Part shown: in pieces, positions 1,639 to 64,000 of the stretch
Position numbering within the stretch: the stretch's first letter is position 1
How the letters are laid out: every line of letters starts with the position of its first letter
DNA from: Tetmemena sp. SeJ-2015
Lineage: Eukaryota > Ciliophora > Spirotrichea > Sporadotrichida > Oxytrichidae
DNA length: 64,000 bases
Assembly (NCBI GenBank): GCA_027382625.1
Contig: JAJKFJ010023567.1
Span: 1-64,000 of the forward strand
Direction of reading: 5' to 3'
Notes under the pieces: generated by a model
Databases searched by the model: none
What the model was told of the DNA's origin: nothing
What the model saw: only the letters and a program-made list of their open reading frames with translations
Program-made: the position numbers and the translations under genes

Positions 1639-2044
1639 TATAGCTAAGAATTTTATATAAAATTTAATTATTAAATTAAAATATATCAAATTAATGGCAA
1701 ATGAAATGTTCAATTTGAATGATTATGATACCATTGATTTATAATAAAACTCCAAGAATTTTATCTCCTTGAAAATTTTATGTGTCAGTGCTCAGAGCAA
1801 AGTTTTAAGAGACATAAGATTGTTGAAGTCTAATATTTTAGTCAATTGGAATTTTTGCACATCATAAATCACTACAGAGAGGGCTGCGAAGATTATCAAA
1901 GAAGAAAATCATATTAATTTTGGATATCCTATCGATCAAATCTACAAACCAAAGGGTGTTATTGCGATTACAAATGTCACTGAGTTTCAACTCTTTATTT
2001 ATTATTTTAATTTATCACCGATTCTAATATAATTCTCAATTATA
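1639..2044 (-). mobile_element. TATAG element (IES-like MITE), type A, inverted copy
   Basis: About 400 bp, bounded by TATAGCTAAGAATT on the left and the complement of TATAATTGAGAATT on the right. It shares an internal body with the other A copies: a stretch around GCTCAGAGCAAAG, a CTACAGAGAGGGC block and an ATTTATTATTTTAATTTATCACC block. It lies tail to tail with the forward copy beginning at 2061, giving an inverted pair separated by only about 16 bp. No coding capacity is seen. Confidence 0.7.
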
Positions 2045-2470
2045 TTTTTTTTTTAATTATTATAGTTGTAATTTTAATTGATTTCTGTGATTGGTTAAAG
2101 TAATAAATGGAGAGTTGCAACTTCGTGTCGGTTGAAATCACAGATACATCTCGCGATTTTCAGCTTGTTCCATAGCTTATCAAAAATTAATATGAGTTTT
2201 TTTCTGTAATCATCATCGTAGCACCTCTCAGCAGTGAGATATGATGTGCGCTCTCCTCTTCATCCTCATTATCACTTTCTTATTAAGTTGTGTCGCTTAT
2301 AACTTTGTACTGAGCACTCCCACACAAAAGTTGCAAGAATTAAAAGTTTTTAGAATTTTATGTAGAAACGAATAGTCTAATAATTATTTAATTTGGATAC
2401 ATTTCAACTGCCACTGATTTATTCCATTTTAATTTAATATCTAATTTAATTCTCTTTTTTATTAAATTCT

Positions 2471-4024
2471 AATTATTAAATTAGAAAGTTAATAACTTTC
2501 CCATACCATTAAACCAATACACAAGCAAATGGTTCTTCAACTTGAAAACAACATCATTCCAGTCATATCCCAAATGCTGAACTTCTTCCCTCAAGCTAAT
2601 ACCCTGACTAAATCATTAGAAAGCTTACACAAAGCAATCAAGAGATCCCCCTCCAACGGAATCCAACTTTCCCACAGATAAAACAACATCCTAATCAAAG
2701 GGATCTCTCTACTTCTAACCTTTAGCTCATTCAGGAAAGCTATTTAAGATACCCTAACTCTTGATATTCTTACTAAACTAATCTAAAATGACAATAGGGA
2801 TCTTCAAACTAATGCCGGTCGCAAGAATACAATCCTTGGAATCGTTGAAATCCTAATCCGAGCTGGCAAACTCAGAGACAAGACCCACTTTTAACAATAC
2901 CAACCAAAAGCCAGTGGTCCTTAACCCCATTAAGATTCGAACAACCCTATTTAATAAGAAACCTAACCCACTATTTAATAATAAAAAGGGGTGAATCTTT
3001 AATCAATTAAAGTTTAGAAATTAACTTAATAATAGGTGACGCATTATCTTTAATGCCACGTCACGACGGGTTAACCTATTAAATATAAAGTTTAATCAAT
3101 CGAACTTAATATTTAATAACTTTAATCAAACATCTCTGATATTAAATAATAGATGGTAGACCTCACACAACCCAAAGGGCAACCCAATAAGGTAGTCTAC
3201 GCGGAAGAAAAGTAACAACCAAAAATCACCCAGTTCTTCAAGAAAGGAAAAGTGGACAAGGTGATAGAACAACTCAGCTAGGATCTTGAAAAGAAAATAA
3301 ACCTGTAACCAGAAGAAGGAAAATATCTCAAATGGCACCAACCAGAATACCTTTAACAGAAAAAATGGTAGGAATCAGCCTATATCTAGAAGAATAATGA
3401 ACTCACATAGTTCTAACAAAAAAGATTGGACCTTATCCACTACCCAATCATGAACCTCCATTCAATAAAACTCTGGCTCTAAAACAACATTGACAATAAC
3501 AACCTGAACTAACCCCCAGAGGTAATAGAGATATTTAAAACTTTCCTTCTCTATGTATAGAACCATACCAATAAAAGTCCTTATCAAACCATTCAGGCCC
3601 TCCTCCACAACTTGCCAATTTTAGTGGAAATTACCGAGGATTCCATGGCTGAAAGAATCCTCAAGATTGCCAACGACTGGGACCCAGTTGAGACACTTGA
3701 CATACTGGATGAGATAACTGACCTCCCTAAACGCAATTGGGAGAGATTCAGAGATCTATACAAACAGAAACTAACCAGACCCCCAGACGAATAACCATGG
3801 TTCAAAGGAGAGAAGAAAAATGACTCCGAGGACGACGATGAAGATTGGTCAGATTAGTGTGATGACCTAAGCTACGAAAGCTAATGACATCGTTCAAACT
3901 TCAGTTGACTTAATTTGTTTGACTGTTTAACACGGGAGTGGCTGTATAGCTTCCCTAAGTTTAACATATAACACGCAAGACGCTAGTTCGTCTAAAATGC
4001 GTTGTTATTATTATTATTATTATT
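2471..4024 (+). mobile_element. LINE-like retroposon insert with target duplication and (ATT)n tail
   Basis: The insert of about 1.55 kb is flanked by a direct repeat of 10-12 bp, (TT)ATTAAATTCT, at 2459-2470 and 4023-4034. It ends in a simple (TTA/ATT)n tail at about 4003-4027. Target duplications of this length with a short tandem-repeat 3' tail are typical of non-LTR retrotransposition. The body carries one long intact ORF (2529-3887) and a 3' untranslated part of about 115 bp that is less AT-rich. No reverse transcriptase is present inside the insert, so this is either an ORF1-only or non-autonomous LINE derivative, or a retrocopied host transcript. Confidence 0.7.
2529..3887 (+). CDS. 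Intact 452-aa ORF1/Gag-like protein inside the retroposon insert
   Basis: Reading TAA/TAG as Gln, an uninterrupted frame runs from ATG 2529 to TGA 3885-3887. The N-terminal ~110 residues are helical with many Leu/Ile. The centre (~130-260) is very rich in Gln and basic residues and includes heptad-like stretches. The C-terminus (~350-452) ends in a strongly acidic Asp/Glu tail. The protein has no IES and no intron, unlike most genes in this window. I recognise no catalytic motif. The layout (helix, basic Gln-rich middle, no enzyme) would suit a LINE ORF1 nucleic-acid-binding protein, but that is inferred from the insert context and not from homology. Confidence 0.6.
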
Positions 4025-5029
4025 ATTAAATTCTCAGCTATATTGTCTAAGAAAATCTTCCTCTTCAAAATGTTTATTTACATTAGCCTATATATTTTTG
4101 TTTATTTATTGTAATATTCATAAAACTAAAGGAGATCTTCCAGATAACACCATCCTCAGAAGACCAACAAATTAAATGATATTCAAATGACTGCTCAAGA
4201 AGAAAAAATGATCAAAATGGAGGGGACGAACAGCACGAGGGCCCATACCTCACCTACTGTACAATTTTTGTGGTTACATTACCATGTACCGCAATAATTC
4301 AAATGAGCTTCAAAGCTTTAGCTTTCTTAAATATTTTTATCCAGGAATTAATAAGGAAAAGAAAGTAAGTTAGAAATAGTAAATCTCGGACATGGAATGC
4401 GGTACAAAATTTGGCTAGGTGTGGGGTAGGACGAGTAGATGATTAATACTTAATACCTGTGTCAAGTTGAGTTTATCACTTAGAGATGATAAATTTTATT
4501 AATACGTATATTGATAATAGAATGCTATTTGCAGAGTGTATTGGGCTGGCAACTCTGAAGATTTGCTTTTTAAACCCATTTTCAAATTTTTCACTGATAT
4601 AATTGAATAGTTATCCCAGATCTCTTAAAATTATTTTTAGAGCCCACAAAAAGCAATGATAATAGATAAAATCTAAAGTAAACTCAAAGGGTAAAAAAAG
4701 GGATGGTTATTTAGTGCTTATTTAGCATATTTTTAAGGAGAGAGTTTTCAGGGATGAGAACGTATGCAACTCTTAGCTCGAGCAGTAAAATTTATAATCA
4801 AATACAGTAGTATCCTATGCCTAACAAGAGGTTTTTATCAGTTGATGGCTCAAAAGCCTATTGATTGATGTTTTGAATCTACAAAAATAACAAAAAAACT
4901 TATCTCTTAATTAAGGAGTGATCAGACTTAATTAAGTAACTTAAAGCATTATTAAATAAAACAGCCAGAGGAAGAATAAATATTAGGCATTAGACTGATT
5001 TATAATTTGATTAAACTTTTAAAAGTTCT

Positions 5030-5240
5030 GCATCACCTCTCCCTTAAATATGGGCATCATAGTTTCATATTAAAGGTCTCCCATAGGATGCATCTAGGTA
5101 CTCTCTAGCTATTTTCTTCTGACAATAGGAGACCACTACTGATAGCTCTGAGGGAATCGGCCGTTTCCACTCACTGCAGGTAATGGCTTAGAATGCCAGA
5201 CGTTAAAACCATCTCTAACTTAGGGTGTGAAATACTACAC
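5030..5240 (-). pseudogene. Fragment of a repeated protein family (copy 1 of 3)
   Basis: On the minus strand, an open frame downstream of about 5234 contains a TP-x-VRDGFN block. It aligns with TPLVREGLKY in the 19.3-kb copy, and the DNA around ACTTAGGGTGTGAA is visibly alike in both. The fragment lies inside the 2.26-kb TIR transposon, which suggests the family may be transposon-borne or have been captured by it. Boundaries are uncertain and no function is recognised. Confidence 0.35.
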
Positions 5241-5714
5241 TTTTGTGCATGTGCGCCTGCCTAGTGGTTCATTAGATTACTCAAAAAGTTTACACTATGC
5301 CTCCGCTTTCTTACTTGGGACTACATCTTAGTGTAATTTAACAGCTGGCATTGTCATTTCGATATCATCCTTTGCTCTCTCGCCCATGATCTTGCTGACC
5401 GTAGTTGCCATAGTCGATTATTCGTCTGCTTCTATCATTCTTTTATTTTTAATCTTTTTTTTGTTGAAATTTTTCTTCCTAAAATTCAAGTCAATTCTAT
5501 CCTCAAATCAATCTTCAAATGGAAGGCTAATTTAATAAACTAGAGAATCTAAAAAAATAGATGATCATAATTCCTAGAAACATAAAATGTCTGTCATAAT
5601 TAATTAACATATCTATAATTTGAGCTATTAAAAAAGTAGCACAGTATATTGCATAATTTATTTCTATCAATAAAGTTAACACCACAAATTTTTAATTCAA
5701 TTCTCATTCAAAAA

Positions 5715-6221
5715 ATGGAGATTCGGCTTTTTAAGAGTTTTAGAATTGAAACGGATTTAATGAGAGACCCCGGAAGGGTATAAACAGAGAACTTAGGTAA
5801 CTTTAAAACCTCCTATAGTGACAACATTGATGTCACTAATAGCTGTGAATAAAAAGACAATGGTATACAGTGGGAACTAAAATATTCGAGCACCCCTTCT
5901 GGCAACCTCATTAATCTCCTAAATTCTGAGTAGATAATGCTAAGCATAAAGACCTTTGATGTTGAGTGTTACTCTTAGAGGCGAAAAAATGACCTAGTCC
6001 TCCTGATATATACAGAAAACTCTTAGATGCTAAGTGTCATCAGAATAATACAAGTGGTCGAGCGCGAAATACTATTTAAGAGAAAGCAAATTAGCAAAAA
6101 CAACATTCCTTTGCACATATTAAGAATCAATCATTACACCTTTGGTAAGGAGCGACTGTCTTGTGGATTTTTTATAATTGCTCATCTCATAGCCGCATTA
6201 CTAGACTCTATCGCCTCTTGA
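5715..6221 (+). CDS. 168-aa ORF inside the 2.26-kb TIR transposon
   Basis: Open from ATG 5715 to TGA 6219-6221 with TAA/TAG as Gln. The N-terminal third is polar; the C-terminal 60 residues are mixed basic and hydrophobic and contain ERLSCGFFIIAHLIAALL. The frame ends immediately before the right terminal inverted repeat, as expected for a gene belonging to the element. I could not match it to a known transposase or peptidase family. A faint likeness of the SCGFFI block to Ulp1-type Cys motifs is not enough for a call. Confidence 0.45.
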
Positions 6222-6487
6222 GGAATGAACCAATGCTATCGAAATATTGGATAACGGCTATGATCTTACCACACCTAGCCGAATTTCGTACCGCGTCAAA
6301 GGTCCAAGATTTTCACTTTAAACTAAATTTCTTTTCCCAATTAATTCTTGGATAAAAATATTTAAGATTGCTAAAGCTTTGAAGCTCATTTAAATTATTG
6401 CGGTACATGTTAATGCAACACCAAAAAAATTCTAATGTATGTGGGGTATTGGTCCTCGTGCGGTGGGGGGCTCATGGCCCAAAATGG

Positions 6488-7400
6488 CCATTAAAAATTC
6501 AAATTAATAACTCTATTTATCAATAATATTATGATTTAAAATATTTAATTATATTTGTTTAGTATATTCCAATTATTATTTAAGCATTGAAGGGAAGTGT
6601 AAATATTGTTGGAAAAATAAATTAACTTTTAATTGTTTAAGAGAAATTATATGAAGAGTATATTCTAATTTGAATAATTATCCTAGATAAATATTTTTAA
6701 TAGGAAGTGATTGATTTTCATATTATAAAGTCAAAAATTAATGAAAATCGATATTTAATTAAATTATAATTTATATATTTTAATTATTGGCAGTTAAGTT
6801 TCGAGCATCTCATTTAGATATGAGCTAATTTGATATATTAGTAATTACTTCATGTGTATATTCTTCTCCAATACTAGAGCAGGTGGACTTTAAGAAATAT
6901 TTATTAAAAAATTTCTGAACCAAGATATTAATTTTAGGCCAAGATTAAAAAGCTTATACCTGAGGTAAATCGCTCTACAGATCTCAATAGAAGAATGAAT
7001 TTGCATGAAATTTAATGTAATAAATACTCAGCTATAATAATAAAATATGCTTTATAGTATTATAGATTTGATAATTAAATTTTTCTCTTTTCATAAAATA
7101 ATTAGTAGAAAGTAACTTACTATTACTTCTTTATTGTATCTCAAATTAAGATGTGATTTAAATTTTATTTCATTACATTTAAAGTCTTAAACATCTAATT
7201 TATTATTTTTCAATCATCTTATTTATAATAATATGCGATTTGTATTTCAAATTCAAATCATACATTTATTTTTAGTGATTTAAAATCTCGATGTTTAAAA
7301 AAGCAGTCAAAATTTTAATTAGCTTTTCGAAATAAATTAAATGGTTAGTCATGATAGAATTGCAAAATTTCTATTAAAATGATATTTTATCTTGTTAATT
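6488..7400. other. AT-rich spacer without recognised genes
   Basis: Simple AT-rich sequence between the TIR transposon and the JmjC gene. No frame with domain-like composition, no tRNA and no repeat family member was recognised. The upstream part of the JmjC gene, if it has an additional first coding piece, could lie here but was not found. Confidence 0.4.
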
Positions 7401-7460
7401 AAAAATTCGCTGATAGAACAAGAAAATACAGTTTCTGAGGCGTTAGATGAAATTTAAGAA

Positions 7461-9954
<2,494 letters not shown>

Positions 9955-10253
9955 GCAACTAGCCCCTCAAACTTATAATAATATATAATCTGCTCTTTTT
10001 TACATTCAAATATTCAAATTCAACCTTTATAACTTTAATCTTTTGCTAATAATATGCTAATTAATATATAAAAAATTTGCCACAATTAAAATATAAACAA
10101 AAAATTAAGCTAAAATTTTTAATATTTTTAGGAGAAGACAGGAGGAGGTTTTTATTTTTAAATAATTATAGCTAGCTTTCAATAAATAAATTAAATAATA
10201 GAGATAAACTTTCAAAATGGAAGAAAGAATCAGTTTCAGACAGAATATATTTT

Positions 10254-12834
10254 ATGAATGGGCTTAGTTAGTGTCTGAAATGCACTCCATATTTCTCAGA
10301 AGAAGCAGCTATAAAGTTAAGACAGTATAGATATATTTTAATATGTTGGAGCAGACACAAGTATAACCTACAAATACTTTTATAATCCAGTAGCAAATAA
10401 GCTAGTGACATTCTTGCCTGAATGGTTGGCGTAAGTGAATATTTTAATTATGACGTAATAAGCTGCTAAGTTTGTAATAGGCCCAATATGGTAAGCAAAG
10501 CTGATCAGTTAATTTTGTAAAGATTACTTTTATTGGGTTCATGTGCGTGGTGATTCCTTTCTTAATCTTATTCACTAACTTCGGAACTGACTTTGAGGGT
10601 GAGGTGCCTGCCTGGTGGTGCTATTTCTCAGCAGTCACCTTCTTTTCCTATCGAATATACATATACCCATAATATATTTTAATAACCTTGTCACATATAT
10701 ATGCAATAGAGATAAAACAATTCAAAATCAATATGATTTTAATCTCATAATAATTTTATAATTATTACTTTGATTTTTTAATAAAAACTTTTTTTTAAAA
10801 AAAGATTGAAATTTTAAGACTTACTACGGGATTATTTAACAATAGAGATTAGAGTTAAATTTACAGGAAAATCTTCTTATCGAAATTAAATAATTAAGAA
10901 AGATATCTAAAAAAGAAATTTAATGAAGCAGAGTTTCTTTTATAAAATATAAAGGATTAAAAGGATAAGTAATTATGATAATGTTTACAAATGAAAAATT
11001 ATAAAAAAATTAAATAAATGTATAGTGAAACAATATTTATATCTAAGCGATTGGTTTTTCTTAACTTTTAGTTTATTAAGATTTAATTTGATTTGCGTCG
11101 ATATTTAAATGCTGGATGAAATGGATGGAAAATAAGCTCGGAGAACTGGGAACTCTTCTCCTCTGGGACTTTTATTCGACCATGGATGTGACTCATTCAC
11201 AACAGGCCTTATGACACTTGAATTTATGAAGCTCATTCAAGTTGGAAATAGCCCCATTTTTTTAATTGGCTTGATAGCCACCACTCAGTCTTTCCATTTT
11301 TCAACTCTGGAGGAGTATTAAATTAACTTGAGTTTTAGCAAATTAAAAAATATGAACTAAAGGATTATGTTGGGGGCCTGTTTCTTGGAGTTGGAAATGG
11401 AGCAACTGATGGTTCAGTAGCCATAATAGGGCTTTTAGTCTACTGTGGAGTAGCCGGATAATAATTCTGGAAGAATATAGTATCAATGACACTGTTTGGA
11501 GAGACCTACTATATGCAAACTTCTCATGTTTTTATTTACGGGTTCTTCTTGTCATAGATAATCGCGAGTCTTTATAAGTAAGAGTTACTAAAATAATGTT
11601 TTGTTTAGTGGTGTGCTGATTATAGTTAAAATTTAAATTAAAACCTGAAATAAGCTAAGATAATAAATGAAGAGCATTAAAATGTTGGCCGTTAAATTGC
11701 TAGCTAAGTAGCTCAATATGGAGCTTGTCAGATAGCTCCTTAAGATATAAGAACAGTTTGCTCTATTGCCACCACGATAGGAGGTGTCTACAAGAGATTT
11801 TGATATCAAAATCTCGGAACCAAGAAATTAGCCAAAGTCAAAAACTTATGACAAATCTAACTCGCCACATAGGCCTCCTAAGAAGAAGTTGCAAGGATTA
11901 AAGTTGCTTAAAATTGAATGCTTAATCGAATGATCATAATTTCAGCCCAATATCTCGCACTTCAACTGCAAATGATTTATAATTTATTAATTGATTTATT
12001 AATTTAATTATCTTTTTTATTAAATTCTGAGCTATAATTATTTTAATACAGATAGTAAAGCATAATTTGAAGGAACTGACACCGGAGTAAAGAGAACTAG
12101 GAGAACCTCTGAGATATTTTGACTTAGTGCAGCAGTACATTGGATTCTACTCTATTTATGGGTTTATTTACGCTGCTGTTATGGCTGTTGATCCTCAGCA
12201 GAGCTCAGTTATCTATTCAAGTCCGTTGCTCCCTAGTGCACTTGCTGTTTTCTTATATGTGCACAATACTGTTGGTATTCAAGTAGCTCATGTTAGCAAA
12301 TAACGATATACTCCTTGGACAAGACTAGTCCTTTTCAATACCGTTAAAATATAAGTTATACTTGCAGTGAGTGCAATCTTGTCAAATAAAAGCTGTAAGC
12401 TCTTCTAGTCATTAGTAATGGAATTTAGAATTGAGCATTGATCAGTAATATTAATTATGCCGCAATATAAACTTATTTAAAAACCCAGAAGTTTAGTTGT
12501 TGATGGTTGGCCTTCTTTTAGTAACTGTTATTTGCTAATGGCACTTTATTTTGAACGTTATCTATGAGATGACAGTGATACTTGGAATAAGAGTTTTCAA
12601 AGTTAAGCCTGTAAGTCAACGTGCTTAATTTTACATGAAATATAATTTCTTCTTTTAGAAAAACTTGCTCTACCAATCTGAACCATTAAGAAGTGAGGGA
12701 AGGCAATCTAGATAGAAATGCAAGACATCGGACGCCCTGATTCGCAAGAGGAGGATATTGAATCAACAAATCCATCTTAAATTCTAGGCGGTTCTCATTA
12801 TGATAGAAGCAATTAGAAAGGCAGACTAAACTGA
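10254..12834 (+). CDS. CDP-alcohol phosphotransferase (choline/ethanolamine type), interrupted
   Basis: An integral ER/Golgi membrane enzyme that transfers phosphocholine or phosphoethanolamine from the CDP-alcohol to diacylglycerol (Kennedy pathway). The N-terminus YFSEEAAIKLRQYRYVGAD, PEWLAPN and several hydrophobic helices precede the diagnostic motif DG-x2-AR-x8-G-x3-D-x3-D, seen here as DGKQARR then GLLFDHGCDS. C-terminal membrane segments continue to about 12600. GT-AG introns: 10431-10480, 10491-10522, 11578-11608 and 12611-12658. IESs: a 10-bp deletion at 10331, 10654-11107, 11316-11365, a TATAG type B element (11621-12036), and an unresolved gap at about 12370-12480. Removing these gives continuous family alignment. 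The frame after the last intron is unclear, so the stop at 12832 is tentative. Start ATG 10254 is chosen because it alone is in frame with the conserved N-terminus. Confidence 0.88.
10654..11107. other. 454-bp IES in the phosphotransferase gene, pointer AAT
   Basis: AAT occurs at 10654-10656 and 11108-11110. Joining them gives FFSYR-M-LDEMDGKQARR, which aligns without gap to the family pattern Y-Q-S-LDAIDGKQARR. The enclosed DNA is AT-rich with no member of the TATAG family recognised. A TA-based alternative leaves two extra residues. Confidence 0.7.
11316..11365. other. 50-bp IES in the phosphotransferase gene, pointer TAT
   Basis: TAT at 11316-11318 and 11366-11368. Excision joins STLEEY to VGGLFLG in frame, matching the EEYYTG-type region of the family. 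The segment lacks GT-AG ends, so it is not an intron. Confidence 0.75.
11621..12036 (+). mobile_element. TATAG element type B, acting as an IES
   Basis: Begins TATAGTTAAAATTTAAATT and ends ATTAAATTCTGAGCTATA. It shares terminal sequences with type A but has a different body (TTGGCCGTTAAA, CTCAATATGGAGCTTG, a GGAGGTGTCTACAAGAG block). Removing it so that one TATA remains keeps the phosphotransferase frame open, once the adjacent 31-nt intron is spliced. The left and right flanks are both TATA, so the duplicated target is TA or TATA. Confidence 0.85.
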
Positions 12835-12902
12835 ATTTATTGATTTCCTTATCTTTACATTTTCCATTTTTCTTATAAGATTATTAAATAAATATAAAAA
12901 CG

Positions 12903-14465: not shown

Positions 14466-16822
14466 TCATAGAAGAGATTATGGAATCATGTCTCTGAGCA
14501 AGGTTTTGATAAAGAAAGCATGAATTTCATGAACCCATCCTCCATGAGTGACATAAGAAGTAGCGTTGTTAAGGGCACCATAGGCTGATGCTTCAGGAGT
14601 AATGACATTGAAGAAACTAACTTTCATTCCGTTGATATTAGTGGCTACGGTTCCAGGTTTCAAACAAAGCACGTCGATGCCTTTACCATTCAACTCGTAA
14701 TAGATACCCTTAGTAAATTTATCATCAAACACCTTAGATGAACAATAACCAGTAATTTAAGGCAAGGTAAGATAGTCAACAATCGATGACACGTTTATTA
14801 TCAAACAATCATATTTATATTAATCATAACCCAATTCAATTTACATATTTAATAACTACTCCCAATTTATTGTAAAATAGAATAAACCAGTTAAAGTGTC
14901 TCAAATTTGAATAAAAATCATAGCATTTGAATAAACATAAAATTACTAGAAAATTATATCCTTGAAACTTTTGTTTGGGAAAGCTCAGTCAAGAGTTATT
15001 AGCAACTAAGCTGATACGAAAGAGACGATGAATGCGAGCAATATATCTCACTTTTGAACTCTTTGTCAAAGATGATGAAAGCAGAAGTTAAATATAACTT
15101 TTGATTGGCTGTCAAACAAGCCATAGATGGAGGAGTTTTAGCAATTTCAACTGCAATCAAACTTTATAATCTTCAGTTAATATTTTACCAATCATTCTTT
15201 TGGGGGGGGGCCTTTCCTCGTCATCCACTTTTTTCCACAAAAATATGAAAAATCACGATCTAGCCTAAAATCAGCCAAAAACACCAAATTTTTAGTCCAA
15301 ACTCAATTTAAAAATGCCTGTCCTAGTCTTATTAATTATTTTAGAGAAGTTATCATCAATTTTTTAGAACTTGGGGATTGATTATTTTATCTTTAAGGCG
15401 GCTTTATAGAGAAAAACCTTTATTTTTTTTGCAAAGATTGGTACATATTTTTTATGGATACTCAATAAAGATATTCATGATTTAAGTCATTTATTGATAT
15501 AAGTTTCTTACAAATAAGTTTAAAGTTATTTAAAATAAATATCTAGTTTATTACATATAAAATCTTAAAAAAGTTAGAAAAAATAAAAAAAGACTTCTTT
15601 ATATATCATGCTTATATAGAAAAATGGCTGCAATAAATATAAATAGATTTATATATTAATTTTAGATTAATTAGCTTTTAATAGGTGCTTTAAGTAAGAA
15701 GAGAATTCTAAAGCTCTTAAATAAAACAAATAAGATCTATGAGTTATTTTTTTTAATTTTGAAATCTTATACTCATTCATAAAGGTATTGAATTTATTTT
15801 AATTTGTGATCTTTCATTCACAATTTAATTTTTTCGAAATCCGTTTTCCTTCAAGGTTCTCCCAAATACTCTAAAATAAAGAATACGAGTATGGTAGGCA
15901 TTTTGAATTTGATTTTGGACTAAAAATTTGGTGTTTTTGGCTGATTTTAGGCTAGATCGTGATTTTTCATATTTTCATGAAAAAAAGTGGATGACGAGGA
16001 AAGGCCCCCCCCATTCTTTTTTTAATTTAATTTATAAAAAAATGCTGGAATTATTAATTATATTATCATCATTAGTTTAAATAAGAAAGCAAAAGATAAG
16101 AAAGTTATACTTTTAAAAATAAAACAAATAGGATAATTATTTCTTGAATAAAATGAAGTATAGAGTTATGATTATACTTATTATAATTATTTGTATCAAA
16201 GATCTTTTGCCAGTTTTTTTCTTTCTGTCAGATAATCTTTGGGTGAAGGCTTTAGTGAGTAAAACTACAGGGTAGCAATTGACTACGCATTCATTTCTAA
16301 CTTTTGAGGGCTCAATGTTTTAAAGCTCATTAGGAGCATTACTAACTCCCACATTTACAAACAAAATACAATTTAAATGAAATAGTTATAAATAGTTTGA
16401 ATTGTTAATCAGCACTGACACATCTAATCCCTCTAACTGTCTCTCAATCTTAGTGTAAACCTCATAGGAGGATTAATAATTATATGATCCTTGGGTGAAG
16501 TCGAATTAAATAACTCTAGTGTCTCTTCTGTGCCTCTGCTGGATTTCTTAAGCAACCTTAGCAAGCTTTTGAGCATCTCTTGAAATAAGAACGATGTTAA
16601 ATCCTCTAGCGGCAAGCTCAAACGCTAATGCTTTTCCAATACCGTCAGTAGAGCCAGTCACTACAGCCCAGGAGTCCTTACCATACCTATCAGTGCTCAC
16701 TTTAGTTCCAATGAAAAGGTTTCTCAAAAGAAGTAAGAATCTGCAAGCCCATGTCGTCAAATTAAAATAATCACCATTAAAGCTCCCACCAGCAGGAACA
16801 AGTGCTCAATTGAACAGATCAT
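14466..16822 (-). CDS. 17beta-HSD12 / very-long-chain 3-oxoacyl-CoA reductase-like SDR, interrupted
   Basis: A short-chain dehydrogenase of the ER membrane; family members reduce 3-ketoacyl-CoA in fatty-acid elongation or act on steroids. From the start at 16822 ([11 protein letters not shown], membrane anchor) come [16 protein letters not shown] (Gly-rich NADP site), [30 protein letters not shown] after an IES, then INVSS (catalytic Ser), GYCSSK (YxxxK), and [11 protein letters not shown]. Stop TGA 14466-14468. IESs: 16353-16400 (pointer ATT on +), 14799-16193 (pointer TATCAAA on +), and apparently a 5-bp deletion near 16765 linking the membrane anchor to TTWACRF. All catalytic residues are present after joining. 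Confidence 0.88.
14862..15193 (-). mobile_element. TATAG element type A, degenerate copy in the SDR IES
   Basis: The body matches type A blocks (AGTGTCTCAAATTTGAATAA, TATATCCTTGAAACTTTTG, CAAGAGTTATTAGC). The usual TATAG start is lost and the far end stops at the insertion site of element H2 (TTTTACCAATC before ATTCTTTT). Confidence 0.6.
15202..16012. mobile_element. Long-TIR G-tract element, copy H2
   Basis: An 811-bp copy closely related to H1, with G-run/C-run ends and CCTTTCCTCGTCATCCAC inverted repeats. It is flanked by the perfect 8-bp duplication ATTCTTTT (15194-15201 and 16013-16020). The interior is non-coding. It inserted into a TATAG copy within an IES, so it is removed together with that IES. 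Confidence 0.88.
16353..16400. other. 48-bp IES in the SDR gene
   Basis: ATT at 16353-16355 and 16401-16403 (AAT on the coding strand). Deletion joins SVLINN to VGVSNAPNE, restoring the NNxG region common to SDR enzymes. Confidence 0.8.
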
Positions 16823-24138: not shown

Positions 24139-24946
24139 TCATTTTCTGACATCAGAGTTTGAACATGTTCTATTATAATTTGTTAAAACTTCAATAAATT
24201 GAGTACCTTTGAGTCTCTCAACATTTTCTTAAAAGCAAATATTTTTTTTCCCGGTTTTTTTTCCAAAAAATTTAAATTTTTAATTTAAAAAATTTTAATT
24301 AATTTTAGAAATTTTAAATTTTTTAAGATTTTCAAACAAATGGGAAAAAATTTTTCCTTATTATTGTTTTTTGAAAATTTCTTATATTTTTTATTATTAC
24401 TTGTTGCAATTCCTCATGGGAAAACTCAGCCATCGTATTCAAAGAAAATGTCACAGTCGTTTTTTAAGGCTACTCACTTCGAGAGTCTGGATCTGTATTC
24501 TACGACTATTGTAATTACTTAAAATTAATATATTAAACCATAACTAAATTTAAAACAAATAATTATAATAAATAATTGTCTGCTCACTATTACTTTAAAA
24601 TTGATAATTCAAGATTTTATTATTTTTTTAATTAGATATTGTGAGTTTGTGGGAGAGAGAACTTAACCGGTTTAAGGTTTGGCCTGATTTGTTTGCTTTG
24701 ACGATGCCTTAAGTTGCAGTTTTTCCTATTCATATGGGTTTGGGTTATTTTTAATTTCTTTTTGCTGTGAGGTTTATTCATCCAAGGCTTGTGCAGGCTC
24801 ACTGTGTAAATCTTTAGGCGTGTTAATTGCTTAACTAATTTGCTCAGCTCCTTCATTAATTAAATAAATGGATTAACGAAGCCTTTGATTTTATCTTTGA
24901 TGTTAACTTGCTTGATCTTTGACTTGAGATTAGCGAATGTATTCAT
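24139..24946 (-). CDS. Gln/Asn-rich protein, interrupted, unidentified
   Basis: ATG 24946 starts MNTFANLKSKIKQVNIKDKI. A 5-bp deletion at an ATT repeat (about 24850) joins GFVNPFI to NEGAEQISQAINT. A polar Gln-rich stretch follows to about 24635. After an IES of about 120 bp, NTDPDSRSEQPQKTTVTFSL then AEFSHEELQQ is seen (to about 24390). A last piece, ENVERLKGTQFIEVLTNYN, ends at TGA 24139-24141. The pieces are linear and share composition, which supports one gene. No domain recognised. Confidence 0.5.
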
Positions 24947-25039
24947 ATTTTGTATTTTAATTATTTGATTTTAAATCTTATCTCATGATTCAAAATCTAC
25001 TGTATGGTTGTGTAATTAAAATCTTATTGCTTTTAAATT

Positions 25040-26119
25040 ATGTCGTTACTCACGTCACTTGCAAGAAGAAGATTTTCAGAGCAGGTAATCCAGCAACAAA
25101 AAGGCCAGTTTAGAAGAGCTATCTACGCTGGAAGTTTTGATCCTCCTTCAAATGGCCATTTGGATATCATTGAAAGAGGACTTTAATTATGTGATGAACT
25201 GCATGTCGGAGTCGCCATCAATAATACTTATTTATTTTACAAAGAAGTAATCATAAATATAGATCTAACTTATTTAAAGGCCTATATTTTCATTAGAGGA
25301 AAGAATCAGACTACTTAGAAAAATAACTCACAATAGAGATAATGTTAAGATAGTTGGAATAGAAGGATTACTAGTAGACTATGCCTAATAGAATAACATA
25401 GACTGCTTTGTAACATATCTTTATATTATAAGATATAGCTAAAAATTTTATGGAAAATCAAATTATATATTAAGTTAAAATGGATTTAATCAGCTTCAGT
25501 TAAAGTGTCTCTGATTTGAATAAATATTACACTATTCGATAAAGCATAAAATTCTTAGAGCTTTATATCCTTGAAAATTTTGTGTTTGAATGCTTAATCA
25601 AGAGTTATTAGTGACACAAAAATTTATAAAGTAGACATTTGGAGTTTGGGAATTTGCGCACATTATATTTTGCTGATGAAAGGTGTTGAGATGATGATTG
25701 CTATAAAACAAGCTGCAGATCATAGGGTGAATCTGTGATTTTTAAACAGACACAAAGTTGCAACTCCACATTTATTATTTTAGCCAATCACTGATTTTAA
25801 TTAAACTTTTAAGTATATTATAGATAAGAGGAATAAGATCTTTCGCTGATTTTGATAGCGAATTTTCAATGGGAATCATTATTGCATTTATAAAAGGTTT
25901 AACTTATGTTTAAGTATAATAAATATGTGTGATAATAGAAGACTAAGTGGGAGGGAAACCATCTTCCTTATGGCAAGCAGCAGTAGAGTGCACATCTCTT
26001 CTTCAAGAATAAGAGAGCTATCTATGTATGGAAAGAAACTAGACAACTTCGTACCAGAAGCAATTGAAGAAGAAGTTTACGATCACTTATTCACTGTATA
26101 TCATTAAAACGGACATTGA
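25040..26119 (+). CDS. CoaD-type phosphopantetheine adenylyltransferase, interrupted
   Basis: Catalyses ATP + 4'-phosphopantetheine to dephospho-CoA + PPi, the fourth step of CoA synthesis. The N-terminus [15 protein letters not shown] is basic and Arg/Ser-rich like a mitochondrial presequence. The nucleotidyltransferase core follows: [21 protein letters not shown] (the T/SxxH-type signature with GH), [61 protein letters not shown] and ISSSRIREL (the ISSS motif), ending [15 protein letters not shown]. IESs: about 25236-25272 (pointer TTTA), 25428-25823 (a TATAG element, pointer ATAAGA), and about 25869-25924 (pointer ATG or AT). The length (about 190 aa) is the family norm plus the leader. 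A bacterial-type CoaD in a eukaryote is noteworthy. Confidence 0.92.
25428..25823 (-). mobile_element. TATAG element type A forming an IES in the coaD-like gene
   Basis: Begins with ATAAGA followed by TATAGCTAAAAATTTTATGG and ends TATTATAG before a second ATAAGA (25824-25829). Excision with one ATAAGA left gives [12 protein letters not shown] in frame. The body matches type A (AGTGTCTCTGATTTGAATAA, GAAAGGTGTTGAG, CCACATTTATTATTTTAGCC). The copy disrupts the active-site region if not removed. Confidence 0.9.
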
Positions 26120-26124
26120 TTTTT

Positions 26125-26640
26125 AAAATCATCTCAATTCTTTAAATCCATCATTCAAGTTAATCAAATATTAAAATCATTTAGGACTCCACTATAAGAG
26201 ACCTAGAAAAGCCTCTCAGCAAGTGATATTAAAATAATTTTTGCTGAACGAAACATTAACTGAAAGACTATATATAATTTTATGCCAAAGATCATGAATT
26301 TGAAAAACGAAATTATTTTTTTTAGAAGCATAAGGTTTCATTAATTTTTGTCAAGCAATCATTTTAAAGAATACTGATTAAATGAATATATTTGTTGAGA
26401 ATAAAATTCTTAACTTGTTATGATCTTTTTCGAACATCTTTCTCACTTAAAATAATTTAAACTTTCTTTTTTGTCAGTTCTTCAATTATTCCAAGAAAAA
26501 TAAAAGAATCAACAGCGATCCAATATTGATAATCTAATAATATAGGAAGGATTGGCATAGATAATCGTGGGTTATTTTTTCTTATAAATACATTGTATTT
26601 GCTTCCTTGTTGGTTGATTAATAATATATTCAAATTAAAT
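26125..26640. other. AT-rich intergenic stretch
   Basis: Nothing recognised. This is the spacer between the coaD-like gene and the ubiquitin-like locus. Confidence 0.4.
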
Positions 26641-26661
26641 TTTGAAGTTAAATTAATTTAT

Positions 26662-26999
26662 ATGTCTACTATCACAAAGACACAACAAAATCAGCCTCTA
26701 AAACTAGCTCAAGCTCAAAAACTTGAAGGTGACCATGAAGGAGTGTCCAGATTAAAAATGCTATACCTCCTGATCAGCAGAGACTCAACTTCAATGGCAA
26801 GCTCAAAGAATTACAAAAGTATGCTTGCATTTGCGCACTTTTGAACATCAACAAGATTACATCAAGCGCATGAACAACTCTCACCGGCTAAAAAATACAA
26901 AAGGAGTCAAAACTCATCCTCATCAAGGAACTTCTTAAAGAGCAGACTTAAAAACTAAAACTAAGTCCGAAGACTTGCTCTTCATAATCTTCACCCTGA
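26662..26999 (+). pseudogene. Ubiquitin-like domain gene, broken or interrupted (copy 1)
   Basis: In one frame IKNAIPPDQQRLNFNGK is a clear match to the ubiquitin segment containing IPPDQQRL. About 100 bp later, in another frame, KIQKESKLILIKEL matches the NIQKESTLHLV strand. An N-terminal frame from ATG 26662 (MSTITKTQQNQPLKL) may be the first strand. The frame changes near 26750 and near 26820-26880. A paralogue at 58.9-59.3 kb is interrupted at the same place, so the second break may be a conserved IES rather than decay. The lysine and C-terminal Gly-Gly features of true ubiquitin are not seen. Confidence 0.6.
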
Positions 27000-27095
27000 T
27001 CTAGTAGGTCCTGGCTACCTCATTAAATTTAAAAGCATAATGCATTAAAAACTAATTATAATTTAATTATATTTTACTTTTCTCTTTCCCTCTAT

Positions 27096-30000
27096 CTTCA
27101 TTAAAGCGCAACGAGGCAAACCGCATCCTTTTTTGAGTAAAATTTAGTATGCTTATATTGGTTTAGTTTACTTTAAAATTTAAGGTCTTCATTGTAAAAG
27201 ATAAGTGATTTTATTTAAACTAGTTTTCTTTTTTTAATACTATCTTTATCTCGATCCCTCCAAATTTTATCAAAAGTAAATATAAAGATAAAATATAAAA
27301 AGTAATAATGGATCAAGTTGAGGACTAAGGATAGTAGTACTAAGTTTAAATAAAATATAAAGAGTATTATTTGAATTAGTTGAGTTGTAGTCATTAGCAT
27401 GGAAAGGTGCATCAGGTCCGAAGAAAACAATAGTGCTAATTAAGTAGTAGGCTACTGTGAACAACATTTGGAGAGACAATACCATCCTAAATATTTTGTT
27501 CTTAGTTAGTTTATAGAGCAAGGTTTAGTTTGGAGATTCAAACCCAATAGCATTTTATTTTAAAGCAAGATATGCCAACATCACTAGTAGATAAGAGCAG
27601 TTGAATTTGTGCTCCTGCTCAAACGTCAAATTCCAGTAAAGATAGTTACTCTTTAGCTAATAGTAATTTCCATAGAGAATCTTTTCGTATTAATCGACAA
27701 TAGTTTCTGAGTGTACATCTTAATTGAATTCTTTAGCATAGAATACTGGGAAGTGCACTCTGAAATTATCAATGGCCTCTCTGATGTAGTACATTCTCAC
27801 TCCATACATCATAGCAAAGCACAAAAAGATTTTAATCAGAGAAGACTTTATAATGAAGATTGCAAAATCTAGATAGGACAGATACTTAGGACTGAGTACG
27901 TGTCTTTTCATTATAGAGTTCTTAGTGGGTCTTGACATGCATGAAAATGAAAACAAGGGAATGAAAGCAAATAGTACGTACACTGCCTCCAATTTGTCTA
28001 TATAATTATGCAACCCCAGAATCAAGTCCATAAACAATAGCAAAAATACTAGCAAGTAAAGGAATATCGCCAAAAGAGAAGCCTACTCAACTGACTCTCT
28101 TAATCTCCTTGCTTCTCTAAAAACTGAAAAGAAGAAGTATATGTTCGTATTTGCATCGAACACAAAAGTACAGGCAAGTGAGTTTATAGCTGCACTTAAT
28201 CTTTCAAGCTTTGTAGGGGTATATTCTGCCTTAAAATGAGAGTTATTTCCATTCATTAGCTTTTATCGCTACTAGTTCTAAGATCAATATAATTAAAATT
28301 ACTAACATAATTTTAAACAAAAGTAATTTAATTTTATATATAAACAGAATTATTATAATGACCAGCTTTTTTTTTTAAAAAATAGAAAGTTTGAAATTAT
28401 AAAATCAAACTTATTTTTATCTTATTTGTATTAAATTAATATTAAAATAGCATAATTTTTCTTATCATAAAAGCAAATAATTTTTATCTTCAGCAAATAT
28501 AAAAATACTTTGCTCTTATGAAATAAATTTAATATAAGATATTCTTCCATTACACCTGAAGCATCGATATTAGGGCTCTATCATCATTCCAACAGCCACG
28601 TTAGCTTATTAGAAGATATGTAGATTTTCTGAATTCATAATGTTTCCGATGCAGCAAACAACATCTCCATTTTCTTGATAAATCTAGAACATTGAATTAA
28701 TATTAACTATCAGTTTGAAGTAGTTGTTTCTGATGAAGAGTCGCAGAATAATGGGACTTAAAGAGGAATCTTATCAACCTCCTCGATATGCTTCTTGATG
28801 CCATCTATTCCATAAGGCAGAATCAGATGGCCATCTTGATTGTACAATTTAGTAAAGTCAGATGGGTTTTCAGCCAAACTAATCCAAGCATTCCATTCAC
28901 TATCAATACCTAACTCCTTTGCAAATGTCTTAGTTTCTAGAACTCCCTCTTTTGAAAACAAAACTCCTCTGATTCCTGCATCTTGAAGGCTCTCAAACAA
29001 TTTATTAGCTTCCTGCTTCTTGTGATGCTTTATCCCAATAATCCCTAAGAATATTTGGTTTTTCTGTGAGCTCTGCAAAGATTCTCTTATTTTTTCAGGT
29101 CTCTAGGGATTTTTATGCTCTATTAAATTCTGAAGATTAGGAGTCAATGGTTTATAAGAGAAGCCTATAGTCACAAAATCTGAAGCTTTCCATTAGAAAA
29201 GAATATCTTTTATGTGATCTTGAACTTTTTTATTGAGAGGAACTACTTTTTCTCCGTTCCAATAATCTGAACATGAATTGAAGATAAAATATTATAAATA
29301 ATGTTTGCCTCTCCTCTGCTAAATATAAAATATATTTATTTTAAGTCTCTCCATTTATACTGATTCGCAAGTATAAATATTTTATTAGTTTATGCTATAA
29401 TACATTTATTTAACAATTAAAATAATGAAGCTTGTTTTTTTTATTTTTCATAAATTTAAAATTAATCCGCAATATTCTGAAATGTTGAATTCAGGAAAAA
29501 ATAATTTTATAGAATTTTTAAATATGTTTTTACCAATATAGATTGAAGCAACTAAATATATTAGAGAGAATGATATCTTTAATGTATAATTCCTGATAAT
29601 TAATAGCATAGGTGAACCGTTTTGTCATAAGAATAGCTAATGGAGCTTATTGCAAGGACTGTCAAATTATTTGACAAGAATCAACGATAAAATATGACAA
29701 TTGCTCCTAGTAGGTTACTTGTGCTGTGAATTGCTCTAGCCAACTGTCATCGCCAAGACTGCGTAAGGGAATTACTACTACTCTCAAATCGAGTATTCCC
29801 TTCCAGAAGACTTGGTCTGCCGTCTCTAGATTTTGCTTAGAGAGCTGAGGAGCGACCAGATGCAAGGATCAGCACTGGAGGAAAGGAATTCCTTTTGTGA
29901 CGCCCAGCTGACTCAACAATTTTCAACAAAGTAAGTAGCCCTCGAAGTTGCTAGCATCTTCCTCCGCCTTTTCTATATAATATCAGCAATTAATTTAAAA

Positions 30001-35415: not shown

Positions 35416-36045
35416 AAGAAAACTTTAAAATAATATCAAGCTTACTCCTATTTTAAAAACATCCTTTATAATATTTAATAAAAAAATTCTTAAAGAAAAT
35501 TTTTATTATAAATTATTGAAAGCTCCAGTAAAATTATAAATTTTGAGAATTACTTTATTTATTTGGTGCTAATTTAGTAAGTTGATTATAAGATAGAATT
35601 TTAATCCCAATTGATATAGTTTAATTGAATAATTATATCTTCAGATACTGGCTTATATTTTCTATAGTAAAGTATAAAATATTGTCACATATTATGCTTG
35701 GTTCCTTGTTGATTGTGAGTATTACTTGCTCTTTCTTCCGCATTCTATTCTTAATTTTATCATATGAGAATTTAAAGTACATGGCTATTCTTCTTCAGTT
35801 CAAAAATTAATTCAGCCATTGTAATCCTCAAATTTTAGTAATTCTTTTAGAAAAATAGAAGATTGTAAAAAATCTAAGCACTAATTAAATAAGAGTAAAA
35901 TATTACCAAAACCAAATATTTGAAATAATATGAAACGAAATCAATTAAAATTGGAGGTTATTTAAAATATTTAATTTAAATTCGTAAAATAGTCCTCAAG
36001 CTACATCTTAATCGATTGCTTACATTATAATTATAATTTAATAAA

Positions 36046-36397
36046 TATAGAGTTAAAAATGAAGGCCTTCTAAATGAGATAGATGGCTCAACATTAGGCT
36101 TGTTCGATAGCTCTTTAAATTATAAGATGATTAAATTCTACAACCCATATGATAGGAGGTCTCTATGAAGAGATTTAGATACTACAAATTTTGAACAAAT
36201 TAATTATCCAAATTCATAATTTATGTCAGAGGTAACTCTTTACAAAGACCTTCTACTAAGAAGTTGCAAGGATGAATTTTTTTGCTTTTTATTTCATGCT
36301 AATTGTAATAATTTCACCCCAATATCTCACATTAATCTACCAAGAATTTCAAATTATATATTTAAATATTTGTCTTTTTTTAAAATTCTCAGCTATA
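36046..36397 (+). mobile_element. TATAG element type B
   Basis: Starts TATAGAGTTAAAAATGAAGG and ends AAAATTCTCAGCTATA. The body matches the copy at 11621 (GGCTTGTTCGATAGCTC, ATGATAGGAGGTCTCTATG, AAGAAGTTGCAAGGATG). No gene has been recognised around it. Confidence 0.75.
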
Positions 36398-37673: not shown

Positions 37674-38086
37674 TATAGTTGAGAATTAAATTAATATCAG
37701 TGATTAGTAAAACAATAAATGGAAAGTTGCAGCTTCATGGTTGTTAAATTCGTAGATTTCCTCCCAGATCTGCAGCTTGATTGAAGGCCTATCTAAATTA
37801 ATATGAGTTATTTATTTTCTCATTTTATAGAACTGCTCAACTACGAGATATGTCGAACGAACTTATTTTCATCTTCCATTTAACTTCATTGAAACTTATG
37901 TTGCTTATAACTTTGAACTGAGAACTACCATGCAAAAATTGAAAGTATATAAGGTTCTTTGAATTCCATGCTAAATCGAATCGTCATATTATTATATAAA
38001 TCTGAGACACTTTATCTGAAACTGTTTTATTCTATTATAATTTAATATATGAATTAATTTGATTTTTCATTAAATTCTCAGCTATA
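37674..38086 (+). mobile_element. TATAG element type A with well-preserved termini
   Basis: The clearest ends of the family: TATAGTTGAGAATTAAATT on the left and ATTAAATTCTCAGCTATA on the right, so the terminal inverted repeat is TATAG(C/T)TGAGAATTxAAT. The first eight bases fit TAYAGYNR, the consensus of Tc1/mariner-derived IES ends in other ciliates. The body carries GGAAAGTTGCAGCTTC and TGTTGCTTATAACTTTG. Confidence 0.85.
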
Positions 38087-46250: not shown

Positions 46251-46479
46251 TCCTTAGTAATATAGAGATTGATTATTTATGCCAATATTATAGCATACAA
46301 TATATTTCAGTGAAATCTAAATGTATATTCAATTTGAATTAATTGAAATGCATATATTTCTTTATAAGTCGTTTATATTATTAATTAGGGAGATTTATGA
46401 AGCAAAATAACGGCGATTTGGATTATATTTCGGACAGCATTACTTTATATTTAAAAAAAAAAAGATTAATTTATAAGTA

Positions 46480-46868
46480 AAAATTAAATGAAAATTAGGA
46501 TTTAATAAAATAATAAATGTTGAGCTCTAAAATATTGGCTGTTAAAATGCATGCTACTACATTCAATATGAAGCTTGCTCGATAGTATAAGTTTGTTATG
46601 CTGAAATTTAGATAGGATATGGTTTTGAAGTAATATCAATATTGCAAACTCTGAATAAATAAATGAGTAAGGTTTAAACATGTGATGGAGGTAACTCTCT
46701 CTGCGGTCTTGCTATGAAGAGCACAAAATGTTGAAAATTGCTTATAATTTAATCCTTAATTTAATGATAATTAATAAGCTCAATGGTTAACTCCTCAACT
46801 GCCACTCATTTTTAAAATTTATAAATTAAATATTAATTTATTCTTTTTTTTATTAAATTCTATATTTA
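46480..46868 (+). mobile_element. TATAG element type B, degenerate ends
   Basis: The body aligns to the 11621 copy (ATTGGCTGTTAAAATGC, TTCAATATGAAGCTTGCTCGA, GGAGGTAACTCTCTCTG, TTTTTTTATTAAATTCTAT). The ends have lost the TATAG motif. Confidence 0.6.
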
Positions 46869-49287: not shown

Positions 49288-49702
49288 ATAATTTGAGAGC
49301 GAATTAAATAAAACTCCTCTTTTTGGGTTTACAATAATTTATGAAAATAGGAGCAAGCAATATTATCCTTACTGTTTAGTCTATATTAAATGAAATAATG
49401 CTGATACAATAAATTTAATTAACCAACTATGTAATTAAATTTAATAAAATATGCAAAAAAGTAAAATGTTGTTAAAAATCATTTTCTTATTCTTTTTATT
49501 CATCCTATTATAACGAATCAGATTCAATAAAAATAAGTACCTCAATCTTATATTAATTTCCCTGACTCAATTTATTTCTATTCTAAACATTACTATTTTA
49601 TTTAATGGTGTAAGAATTCAAAGATATATGAAAATAAAAAGTAAAAATTCTTAGCGATGACTATATTTGGCTATTAATCTCAAAATAGATGTTAAAATAA
49701 AT

Positions 49703-50325
49703 GGGGGGGGGCCTTTCCTCGTCATCCACTTTTTTCCATTAAAAATGAAAAAACATTATCTAGCCTAAAATCAGCCAAAAACGACAATTCATTAGTCTAA
49801 ATTCAAATCCAAACAGTCTAACCTACTCATATTCTTAAATTAAAAGAATTATCTTAAAGATTTAGCAGGTAGAGAACAGAAAAATTAATCTTTATGACGA
49901 CATTATAAAAAAACAAAATATATTTTTTATTATTAGAGCATATTTAAATAAAAATACATCACATAACAACAAAGATAGATCAAGATGTTAATTTTTAAAG
50001 TAATTAGGCTTTAATGCATGCTCTAGAATAAGAAGAGAATCCTAAATCGCTTATATATAAGTTTAGATATCTATGAGTTAATTTTATATTCATTAAGGCA
50101 TTTAATTTATTTAAATTATCTTTCCATTTGTTTAAAATTACATTTTTTTAAAATAAAGTTTCTTTCTAGGCTCTTCCAAATTCTCTAAATATAAGAATAA
50201 GAGTAGCTTAGACTCTTTGGATTTGAATTTGGACGAAAGAATTGTCGGTTTTGGCTGATTTTAGGCTAGATGATGATTTTTCATTTTTTCATGAAAAAAG
50301 TGGATGACGAGGAAAGGCCCCCCCC
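49703..50325. mobile_element. Long-TIR G-tract element, copy H3
   Basis: A 623-bp copy with the G-run/C-run ends and CCTTTCCTCGTCATCCAC repeats. It is flanked by the exact 8-bp duplication AAATAAAT (49695-49702 and 50326-50333). Shorter internally than H1 and H2. Non-coding. Confidence 0.88.
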
Positions 50326-50639
50326 AAATAAATTTTTTTAATTTTAGTTTATAATTGAAGGTATATACGTCAAGTTTTAAAGACCTAACTTGATTTAACT
50401 CTGCATTTTAATTTTAGTAAATTATGATATAATTTTTATTTCTATATTTATTTCAAGAAGATAATTAGGGTATAATTAAATAATCTCTTAAAAAATATCT
50501 GTGATTTATAACTGCTGAGATTATTAAACCCATTTTAATTGTAACTTTACTGATGTGGTTTTATATTAATTAGCGATATGATTGGCGAGTCTATTATATT
50601 AGTTTTTATACATGAATACCTGCCCTATTAGATAAGGAC

Positions 50640-51070: not shown

Positions 51071-51164
51071 AGAGATAAGATTATATATAATTTAAATAAC
51101 TTATAATTCATTTCAAAATATAATTAAATATTTTATCAAATTATGATGGAAAAAATAAGCTTCC

Positions 51165-51490
51165 GTAAAAATGTCATTAAATTCGAAAATTATTAAATCA
51201 TTTGATTTGCAAATACTAAGGGTTTTATATCCTTCCAACTTATATTTGCAAGAACTCAATTCAGAGATATAAAACACACAAGTTTTAATGATTAAAATGA
51301 AGATGATAATGATGAGTAGGTGATATATATCTCACAACCAAGAGGTCCTATGTAGATGATTTAAGAATAAATTCATATTTATTTTCAATGACTATCGAAC
51401 AAGTTAAAGATCAAAAGTGAATAAGCCATTTTAATAACAGAATTTGTGATTCCCATTGATTTTTATTTATTTTTTAAACCATATCAGTTT
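51165..51490 (-). mobile_element. TATAG element type A, degenerate
   Basis: The body shows GGGTTTTATATCCTTCCAAC, AGAACTCAATTCAGAGATAT, AACACACAAGTTTTAATG and a late GAATTTGTGATTCCCATTGA block in type A order. Ends are not preserved. Confidence 0.55.
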
Positions 51491-51954: not shown

Positions 51955-51959
51955 TTGGA

Positions 51960-52920
51960 TATATACATTTATTATTTTGCATATTTCATTCAATTCAATC
52001 TGTGATTTTATTAAATAAATATTAAATAATTGAAAGTAATTATATTGATAAAATATTGGTGAGTCCTATTTGAGATCAATTAATATTTGCTTTGTGATTG
52101 TTTAGAATGCTCTCCGAGTGCCTCTGCATTTTATACTAGTATAATTTAATAATTCAATTGTATACTACTTCTCTACTAAGAGGAATTATTTATTATGCAT
52201 ATGAATTCTACTTTATCAAACTTTATAATTCTTAAGTATTTAATTCATTTTTTTTAACGATGGTTAGAATTAATCCAAAAATTTATTTGATAAAATAACT
52301 AATTTATAAATTAATGAATGTAAATTAAATTTTTAATTTTTGAATTATATAAACACTATTCGATAAATCATACAATTTTAATAGGTTATATCTTATAAAT
52401 TTTTTACTGGAGTGTTTAACTTGTATATTAGTAATGCATAATAACTCAAAAATTGGACAAAAGCTTTTAACGTATGCAAATTATATCTGCGCAAGAATTT
52501 TAAGCAGATTTTAAAAAAGATTAAGCCTATTATTTTATATTGATTATAAACAATGCTTAAGATAGAGATTTAACCACATAATATAAATTCAGTCAAACTT
52601 TCCATTCAAATTTATTAAGACATCTTCGGTTTAAAATAAGTATAAGACTATTAAAATTATTAAGATATATTTCATAATAAAATTTATAGACTATTAAAAT
52701 TATTAAGATATATTTTATAATATAATTTATTGAGTGGAAATAGTAAATAAATTGGAATAATATTTCAGTTTAATAAAATATGAATTTAAATTATTTTTCG
52801 TTTTATTTTAGTTATTTGTTTGAGTATTAGCCATATTCCTTGAATCGATGATAAGTTGTATAATTTGGATGTAATTAAGTTATATTGAATAAAATATTCT
52901 AAAGCAGTTATAATTTTAAT
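51960..52920. other. AT-rich stretch
   Basis: No gene recognised. A tandem-like duplication of about 45 bp (ACTATTAAAATTATTAAGAT twice) lies near 52645-52720. Confidence 0.4.
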
Positions 52921-52923
52921 TAA

Positions 52924-63420
<10,497 letters not shown>

Positions 63421-63600
63421 TCAATTCTAATTCATTAATTCTTTTTTCTTAAATATCTTAGTCTACAATTCAATAGTTTAAAAAAACATAAATATTTTAT
63501 TCAAATTTAAGATTACATATTGTATATTAAAATTATCAAGAGAAATGATGTCTATGTAATATCTATCATGTTTATGAATATTCAATTCAAAAAATCTGCA

Positions 63601-64000
63601 TATTAAAGATGAAAATTTAATTAAAATCGATGATTGGATAAAATAATAAATGAGAGTTGCAACTTCGTTTCAATTTAAATAATAGATTCACCCCTGATCA
63701 ACAGCTTGTTCGAAGGCAATCAAAAATTAATATGAGTTTCTTCTTTAATCATCTTCAAGCCCCTCTCAGCAGTGAGATATGCTTCGCATATTCTTCTTCT
63801 TTTTCGTTTTCAAACTATTAAAAACTTGTGTCGCTTATAATTTTTTACTGAGCGCTCCCACAAAAAGTTGTAAGAGCAAATGTTCTTGAAATTTCATGCT
63901 TTATCGAATGGTGTAATAATTGTTCAAATCTGAGATCCTTCATCAGTCACGATTTTTATCCATTTTAATTTAATATCTTATTTAATTCTCTTTTTTATTA
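63601..64000 (+). mobile_element. TATAG element type A, cut by the window end
   Basis: Starts TATTAAAGATGAAAATTTAA and carries the typical body (GAGAGTTGCAACTTCG, CCCCTCTCAGCAGTGAGATA, GTGTCGCTTATAATTTT, GAGCGCTCCCACAAAAAG). It ends in TCTTTTTTATTA, just before the expected right terminus. Located directly after MORN piece 3. Confidence 0.75.

Follow-up and report, generated by a model that had tools for sequence, protein, structure and literature searches.

The window, a stretch of 64,000 nucleotides from Tetmemena sp. SeJ-2015, appears to be germline-type ciliate DNA in which genes are interrupted by non-coding stretches; its genes were read with UAA and UAG as glutamine, an assumption at first that the gene matches later bore out. 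Profile and BLAST searches recovered at least 15 copies of a repeat with TATAG ends, nine near full length and six degenerate or partial, and shorter matches occur as well (e.g., 52339-52419). Full-length copies lie at 1639-2044 (+ strand) and 37674-38086 (-), and others at 11621-12036 (-; diverged), 56240-56654 (+; left terminus degraded), 58092-58495 (+), and 63604-64000 (-; cut by the window end). The copy at 7952-8369 (+) is flanked within a single gene by a JmjN-like and a JmjC coding part, and that at 25434-25817 (+) lies within the coaD (PPAT) gene. The copy at 2061-2476 (-) is interrupted, a retroelement-like insertion, read by eye, having apparently moved its outermost ~15 bp to about 4028-4042. 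Degenerate copies are found at 14829-15194 (+), divided by a GGGGGCC-ended element (15201-16012) that leaves a remainder at about 16013-16036, at 36039-36397 (-), at 46472-46861 (-), where both end regions match, and at 51100-51463 (+), together with a fragment at 53880-53995 (-) and a shortened copy of ~200 bp at 60787-60987 (-), one end region of which was recognized by BLAST and the other by motif only.

Other repeats are layered over these copies. The retroelement-like insertion (approximate boundaries 2470-4030, + strand) carries a long ORF read in code 6 and a (TTA)n tail, and is flanked by a 10-12-bp repeat with ATTAAATTCT; no Pfam family matched the ORF at an E-value of 0.01, and its QPKITQFFKK stretch resembles a PCNA-binding motif, as judged by eye. 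Elements ending in GGGGGGGCC (the GGGGGCC ends), with TIRs of ~150 bp, occupy 716-1556, 15201-16012, and 49694-50335, with part of another at 57819-58025; by eye, the three fuller ones have 8-bp flanking repeats, namely AAAATTTT, ATTCTTTT, and AAATAAAT. Since the TATAG copies at 14829-15194 and 2061-2476 each hold an inserted element, as read by eye, they are older than their insertions. A short-chain dehydrogenase-like gene is also in two pieces (16712-16206, by Pfam; 14735-14490, by eye), with one of the GGGGGGGCC-ended elements between them. Another repeat of ~570 bp, with many copies at ~77% identity, is found at about 26536-27103, and in contigs C4158, C3726, and C2092 its coordinates point to a position within a TATAG copy. 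A further repeat of ~515 bp with ~48-bp inverted ends, whose listed copies are 85-95% identical, was observed outside the window (L027:8490-9004), and a long simple T tract lies at 62904-63137.

The TATAG copies represent a single element of ~413-417 bp in the window, present on both strands. An earlier note on this DNA had described two types, A and B, with common ends and different bodies, but these proved to be the same sequence on opposite strands: 37674-38086, reverse-complemented, aligns in full with 7952-8369 at 67% identity. With A and B reduced to one element, the suggestion that two bodies share one transposase falls, while the recognition of a non-autonomous family with Tc1/mariner-like, TA-type ends stands. 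Window copies are about 66-75% identical in long alignments. A young subfamily exists beside these old, diverged copies, and other elements are nested in the old ones. Among 20 copies fetched from 40 scored matches, 19 matched profile positions 2-417, and non-allelic pairs among these 19 were 85-94% identical. The young set used below comprises 17 of the 20, two allelic duplicates and one truncated copy (L058) having been left out; all 17 lie outside the window and measure 416-419 bp. Their consensus has imperfect TIRs of ~14 bp, TATAGCTGAGAATT on the left and TATAGTAGGAATTTT on the right (reverse complement), and the TIR form of the family is TAGCTGAGAATT. No Rfam family was matched across the whole window at gathering scores, and from this and its length the body appears to be non-coding, with no recognizable coding content. 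A short, apparently non-coding element of homogeneous length with imperfect TIRs and a target-site duplication has the features of a MITE.

The family is abundant. The TATAGYTGAGAATT end motif has 20 window sites at up to two mismatches vs. 4.49 expected, and the exact terminal 14-mer (TATAGYTGAGAATT) occurs 1,886 times (952 + 934) in the 146-Mb assembly of 5,213 contigs vs. 24 (15 + 9) for a reversed-pattern control; positions were listed for 100 of the 1,886. Together with the window copies, these counts bear out the earlier description of some 15 copies of ~0.4 kb in both orientations. The profile gave 10 matches in 200 kb, namely the leading 10 kb from each of 20 contigs whose numbers were picked at random. 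A query with L021, whose main repeat is the TATAG element, gave about 3,700 first-look candidates, a figure that counts redundant contigs as well, and 39 of them were scored. Redundancy is illustrated by window positions 24600-31200, which recur at 100% identity in contig C2786, and at least one contig (L037) is bacterial, as judged by eye.

The mode of insertion could be observed at one locus. L021 carries a TATAG copy at 6684-7099, whereas the homologous contigs C4225 and C3556 lack it and have a single TA there; TA was therefore duplicated on insertion. Both contigs are 92-94% identical to L021 over 10 kb with no other large gap in the matches, and their empty sites appear to be the same sequence throughout the ~600 bp read; they could be paralogues or alleles of L021. 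The duplication is thus shown at one locus with two empty homologues. The order at the filled site (left flank, TA, TAG...CTA, TA, right flank) is that of Tc1/mariner-type elements, although TA duplication is not exclusive to that superfamily.

The gene interruptions proposed earlier held for two genes. The copy at 7952-8369 separates a JmjN-like stretch (matching KDM4A in PDB, E = 9.4e-5) from the JmjC/C5HC2 part of the gene, and the copy at 25434-25817 interrupts coaD, whereas no separate phosphotransferase gene was identified among the selected window proteins scanned. The coaD locus is the sole one at which a junction was placed, by homology. When 401 direct-repeat joins were scored against two PPAT sequences, the best (128.0) used TAA at 25411-25413 and 25825-25827, 23 bp to the left and about 8 bp to the right of the element, and gave a gapless product reading through DCFVRGIRSF that matches PPATs in PDB (best E = 4.6e-31). 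The second-best join (123.5) lies partly inside the element with its left side shifted, a join at the 6-bp pointer ATAAGA scores 115.0, and joins 1-3 bases off the element ends are in frame, score 106.5-109.5, and add about 9-12 residues. Joining exactly at the TA ends breaks the frame and scores 100.5. A putative IES at 25411-25827 (+), with pointer TAA at both edges, would thus hold the copy, which has most likely been nested in, or become part of, a larger IES, and near-end excision is disfavoured by homology to PPATs. The element ends accordingly do not coincide with the preferred MDS-IES junctions at this locus. No second coaD locus beyond the duplicate contig C2786 was found among 40 scored of 2,446 candidates obtained with 24600-31200 as the probe.

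These observations bear on the possibility that the TATAG copies are mobile IESs (MITIES), i.e., that at many loci the element is the IES and is excised exactly at its TA ends in macronuclear development, with coaD in a nested minority. The preferred coaD junction outside the element argues against this, and across the copies the evidence is divided. The first eight bases had been said to fit TAYAGYNR, the form expected under such a reading. This holds for 33 of 34 ends of the 17 young copies, but among 14 older copies from the window and the 20 random contigs only 17 of 28 ends fit, the other 11 no longer doing so. Several further copies are flanked on both sides by coding-like DNA, as mobile IESs within genes might be, whereas the low GC of the adjoining flanks (a mean of about 0.25 within 30 bp of 37 copies vs. 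0.29 beyond 60 bp) speaks against it. Under a codon model, the best coding frame at L027 runs on through an exact TA join with either of the two window sizes used, but the coaD copy has an offset of 2 for that join and the other copies have mixed offsets; the signal was too weak and mixed for frame continuity to serve as an excision test. L027 matches an ankyrin family weakly (Ank_4, E = 6.7e-4, short of the curated cut-off), and none of 34 candidate homologues for placing its junction reached an E-value of 1e-3. Nor did mean joined-ORF length favour joining exactly at TA (211 for TA, 217 for TA+1, 208 for TA+2, and 216 for none) in 37 of 39 copies, those with allelic or short flanks being left out and one further window-edge match dropped; this measure is uninformative on excision because the code used has TGA as its sole stop, and it was set aside. 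On balance, excision at the element's own ends at many loci appears unlikely.

Contigs with telomere-like ends were also considered. C298, C334, C508, and other contigs end in C4A4 repeats and are possibly macronuclear chromosome ends. Together with UAA and UAG as glutamine codons, such repeats point to a spirotrich. Two C4A4-bearing contig ends (L013 and L014) were tried as macronuclear probes and rejected, their homologous contigs being uninterrupted in 1.5 kb.

A stronger proposal, made in the earlier note, is that the copies are domesticated IESs, in which selection maintains the ends for the sake of host genes that depend on precise excision there. Substitution patterns were compared by position in 35 of 37 copies (the interrupted copy at 2061 and the allelic L008 were left out). 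Considering all substitutions, TATAG changed at 0.6% vs. 7.0% for the body in young copies, as conserved excision signals would, and at 4.3% vs. 24.7% in old copies; before comparison, boundaries could be moved by as many as 6 bases so as to fall on TA ends, and terminal conservation is therefore favoured in the old-set figure. Constraint in the source lineage for transposition also predicts a lower all-substitution rate at TATAG. Private substitutions in the 17 young copies amounted to 1/170 at TATAG of both ends vs. 112/5,726 in the body (Fisher p = 0.38, a weak test) and to 10/306 at positions 6-14 (p = 0.14). These rates are indistinguishable from that of the body and show no clear avoidance of the ends, the 1/170 leaning weakly towards conservation. 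Positions 15-40 had fewer private changes than the body (7/884, p = 0.014), which domestication could also explain; this and the lower all-substitution rate at TATAG may reflect constraint either in the source lineage or on the copies. Both window copies confirmed as gene-interrupting (7952-8369 and 25434-25817) lack TAYAG at one end, their right ends being TATAAGTC and TATACTTA, contrary to what selection for excision at those ends would maintain. With the coaD junction outside the element and its exact TA-end join out of frame, ends that act as excision signals were not supported; domestication is not proven, has one locus speaking against it, and is very improbable.

The source of transposase was sought among the transposons of the assembly. 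DDE_3 transposons are common (921 candidates, 150 scored), whereas the 13 DDE_1 candidates included a single match (E = 5.2e-4), which coincided with a DDE_3 match. Five DDE_3 loci were fetched, one bacterial and four with ORFs that look TBE-like by eye. The four non-bacterial loci match the TATAG end motif only at 3 mismatches. For two of them, the near-identical L038 and L039, one end was located, with CATAAGCT followed by ATT or ATA; it is not of the TATAG type, and this single end is compatible with ANT duplication. At the other two, L040 and L041, no end was located. On C306, exact ends 3.1 kb apart form an opposed pair, which was rejected as an autonomous element since the 1 kb at its middle looks by eye like host coding sequence. 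The full-length, transposase-encoding relative looked for following the earlier note was therefore not found among the fetched DDE_3 loci and the C306 pair. Because no autonomous element with TATAG ends was identified among the four non-bacterial DDE_3 loci (ends located at L038/L039) and the C306 pair, the mobilizing transposase is one that we only infer.

An abundant TA-inserting MITE family is of a known kind. In Paramecium, the 233-bp family FAM_2183 has thousands of copies with 72% mean identity, some intragenic (PMC8354472). It resembles the TATAG family as a short, non-autonomous repeat at high copy number with comparable identity (about 66-75% here). Its copies are described there as 80% mobile IESs and 20% nested (PMC8354472), a precedent for TATAG copies as mobile IESs; however, those junctions come from macronuclear data and in 80% the copy is the IES itself, whereas the coaD copy looks nested, by homology. 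The account of BogoMITE of Blepharisma gives a median of 388 bp (for copies of <5% divergence), thousands of copies, and occasional nesting in unrelated IESs (PMC9942856), so that these MITIES are similar to the TATAG family in length, in number within a ciliate germline, and in nesting. However, BogoMITE has an autonomous pogo-type (DDE_1) partner, whereas the single DDE_1 match here overlaps a DDE_3 match. The TBEs of hypotrichs, as tabulated, are Tc1/mariner elements that duplicate ANT and whose TIRs carry telomeric repeats (PMC4724952). TBE-like DDE_3 transposons, judged by eye, are present in the same assembly, but the TATAG family duplicates TA and its ends lack C4A4, setting it apart from TBEs. 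In Oxytricha trifallax, similar IESs at non-homologous loci were reported for 31.5% of the IESs examined (PMC10901763), and the TATAG family shares with these mobile IESs the occurrence of similar sequences at non-homologous loci.

Taken together, the observations probably reflect a TA-duplicating MITE family, likely moved by a DDE_3 transposase, that is carried as a passenger in germline-limited DNA. The element is a ~415-bp, apparently non-coding, non-autonomous DNA transposon with imperfect ~14-bp TIRs that integrates at TA, duplicating it, and its mobilization in trans is most likely due to a DDE_3 transposase of the Tc1/mariner type. Copies would persist in germline-limited DNA, existing IESs included, and the host's pointer-based rearrangement would remove the DNA that holds them, so that the TATAG ends would serve transposition rather than developmental excision. 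For the arbitrary pointers that the earlier note supposed at the other IESs of this genome, there is only a hint, in the form of a single 129-bp insertion edged by a 13-bp repeat (L020:8232-8244 vs. C1548:1294-1422), seen as coordinates and resembling an ordinary long-pointer IES. Were TA-inserting MITEs to act as mobile IESs at many intragenic sites, two excision grammars, one TA-ended and transposon-type and one with arbitrary pointers, would coexist in one genome, which seems rather doubtful. Its very many TA insertions of differing age, some of them intragenic, make the TATAG family suitable for testing ideas on the origin of ciliate IESs. To judge from the coaD copy, transposons may become established within existing IESs and be carried along, and counts of transposon-like IESs should therefore separate nested copies from those that form the junctions.
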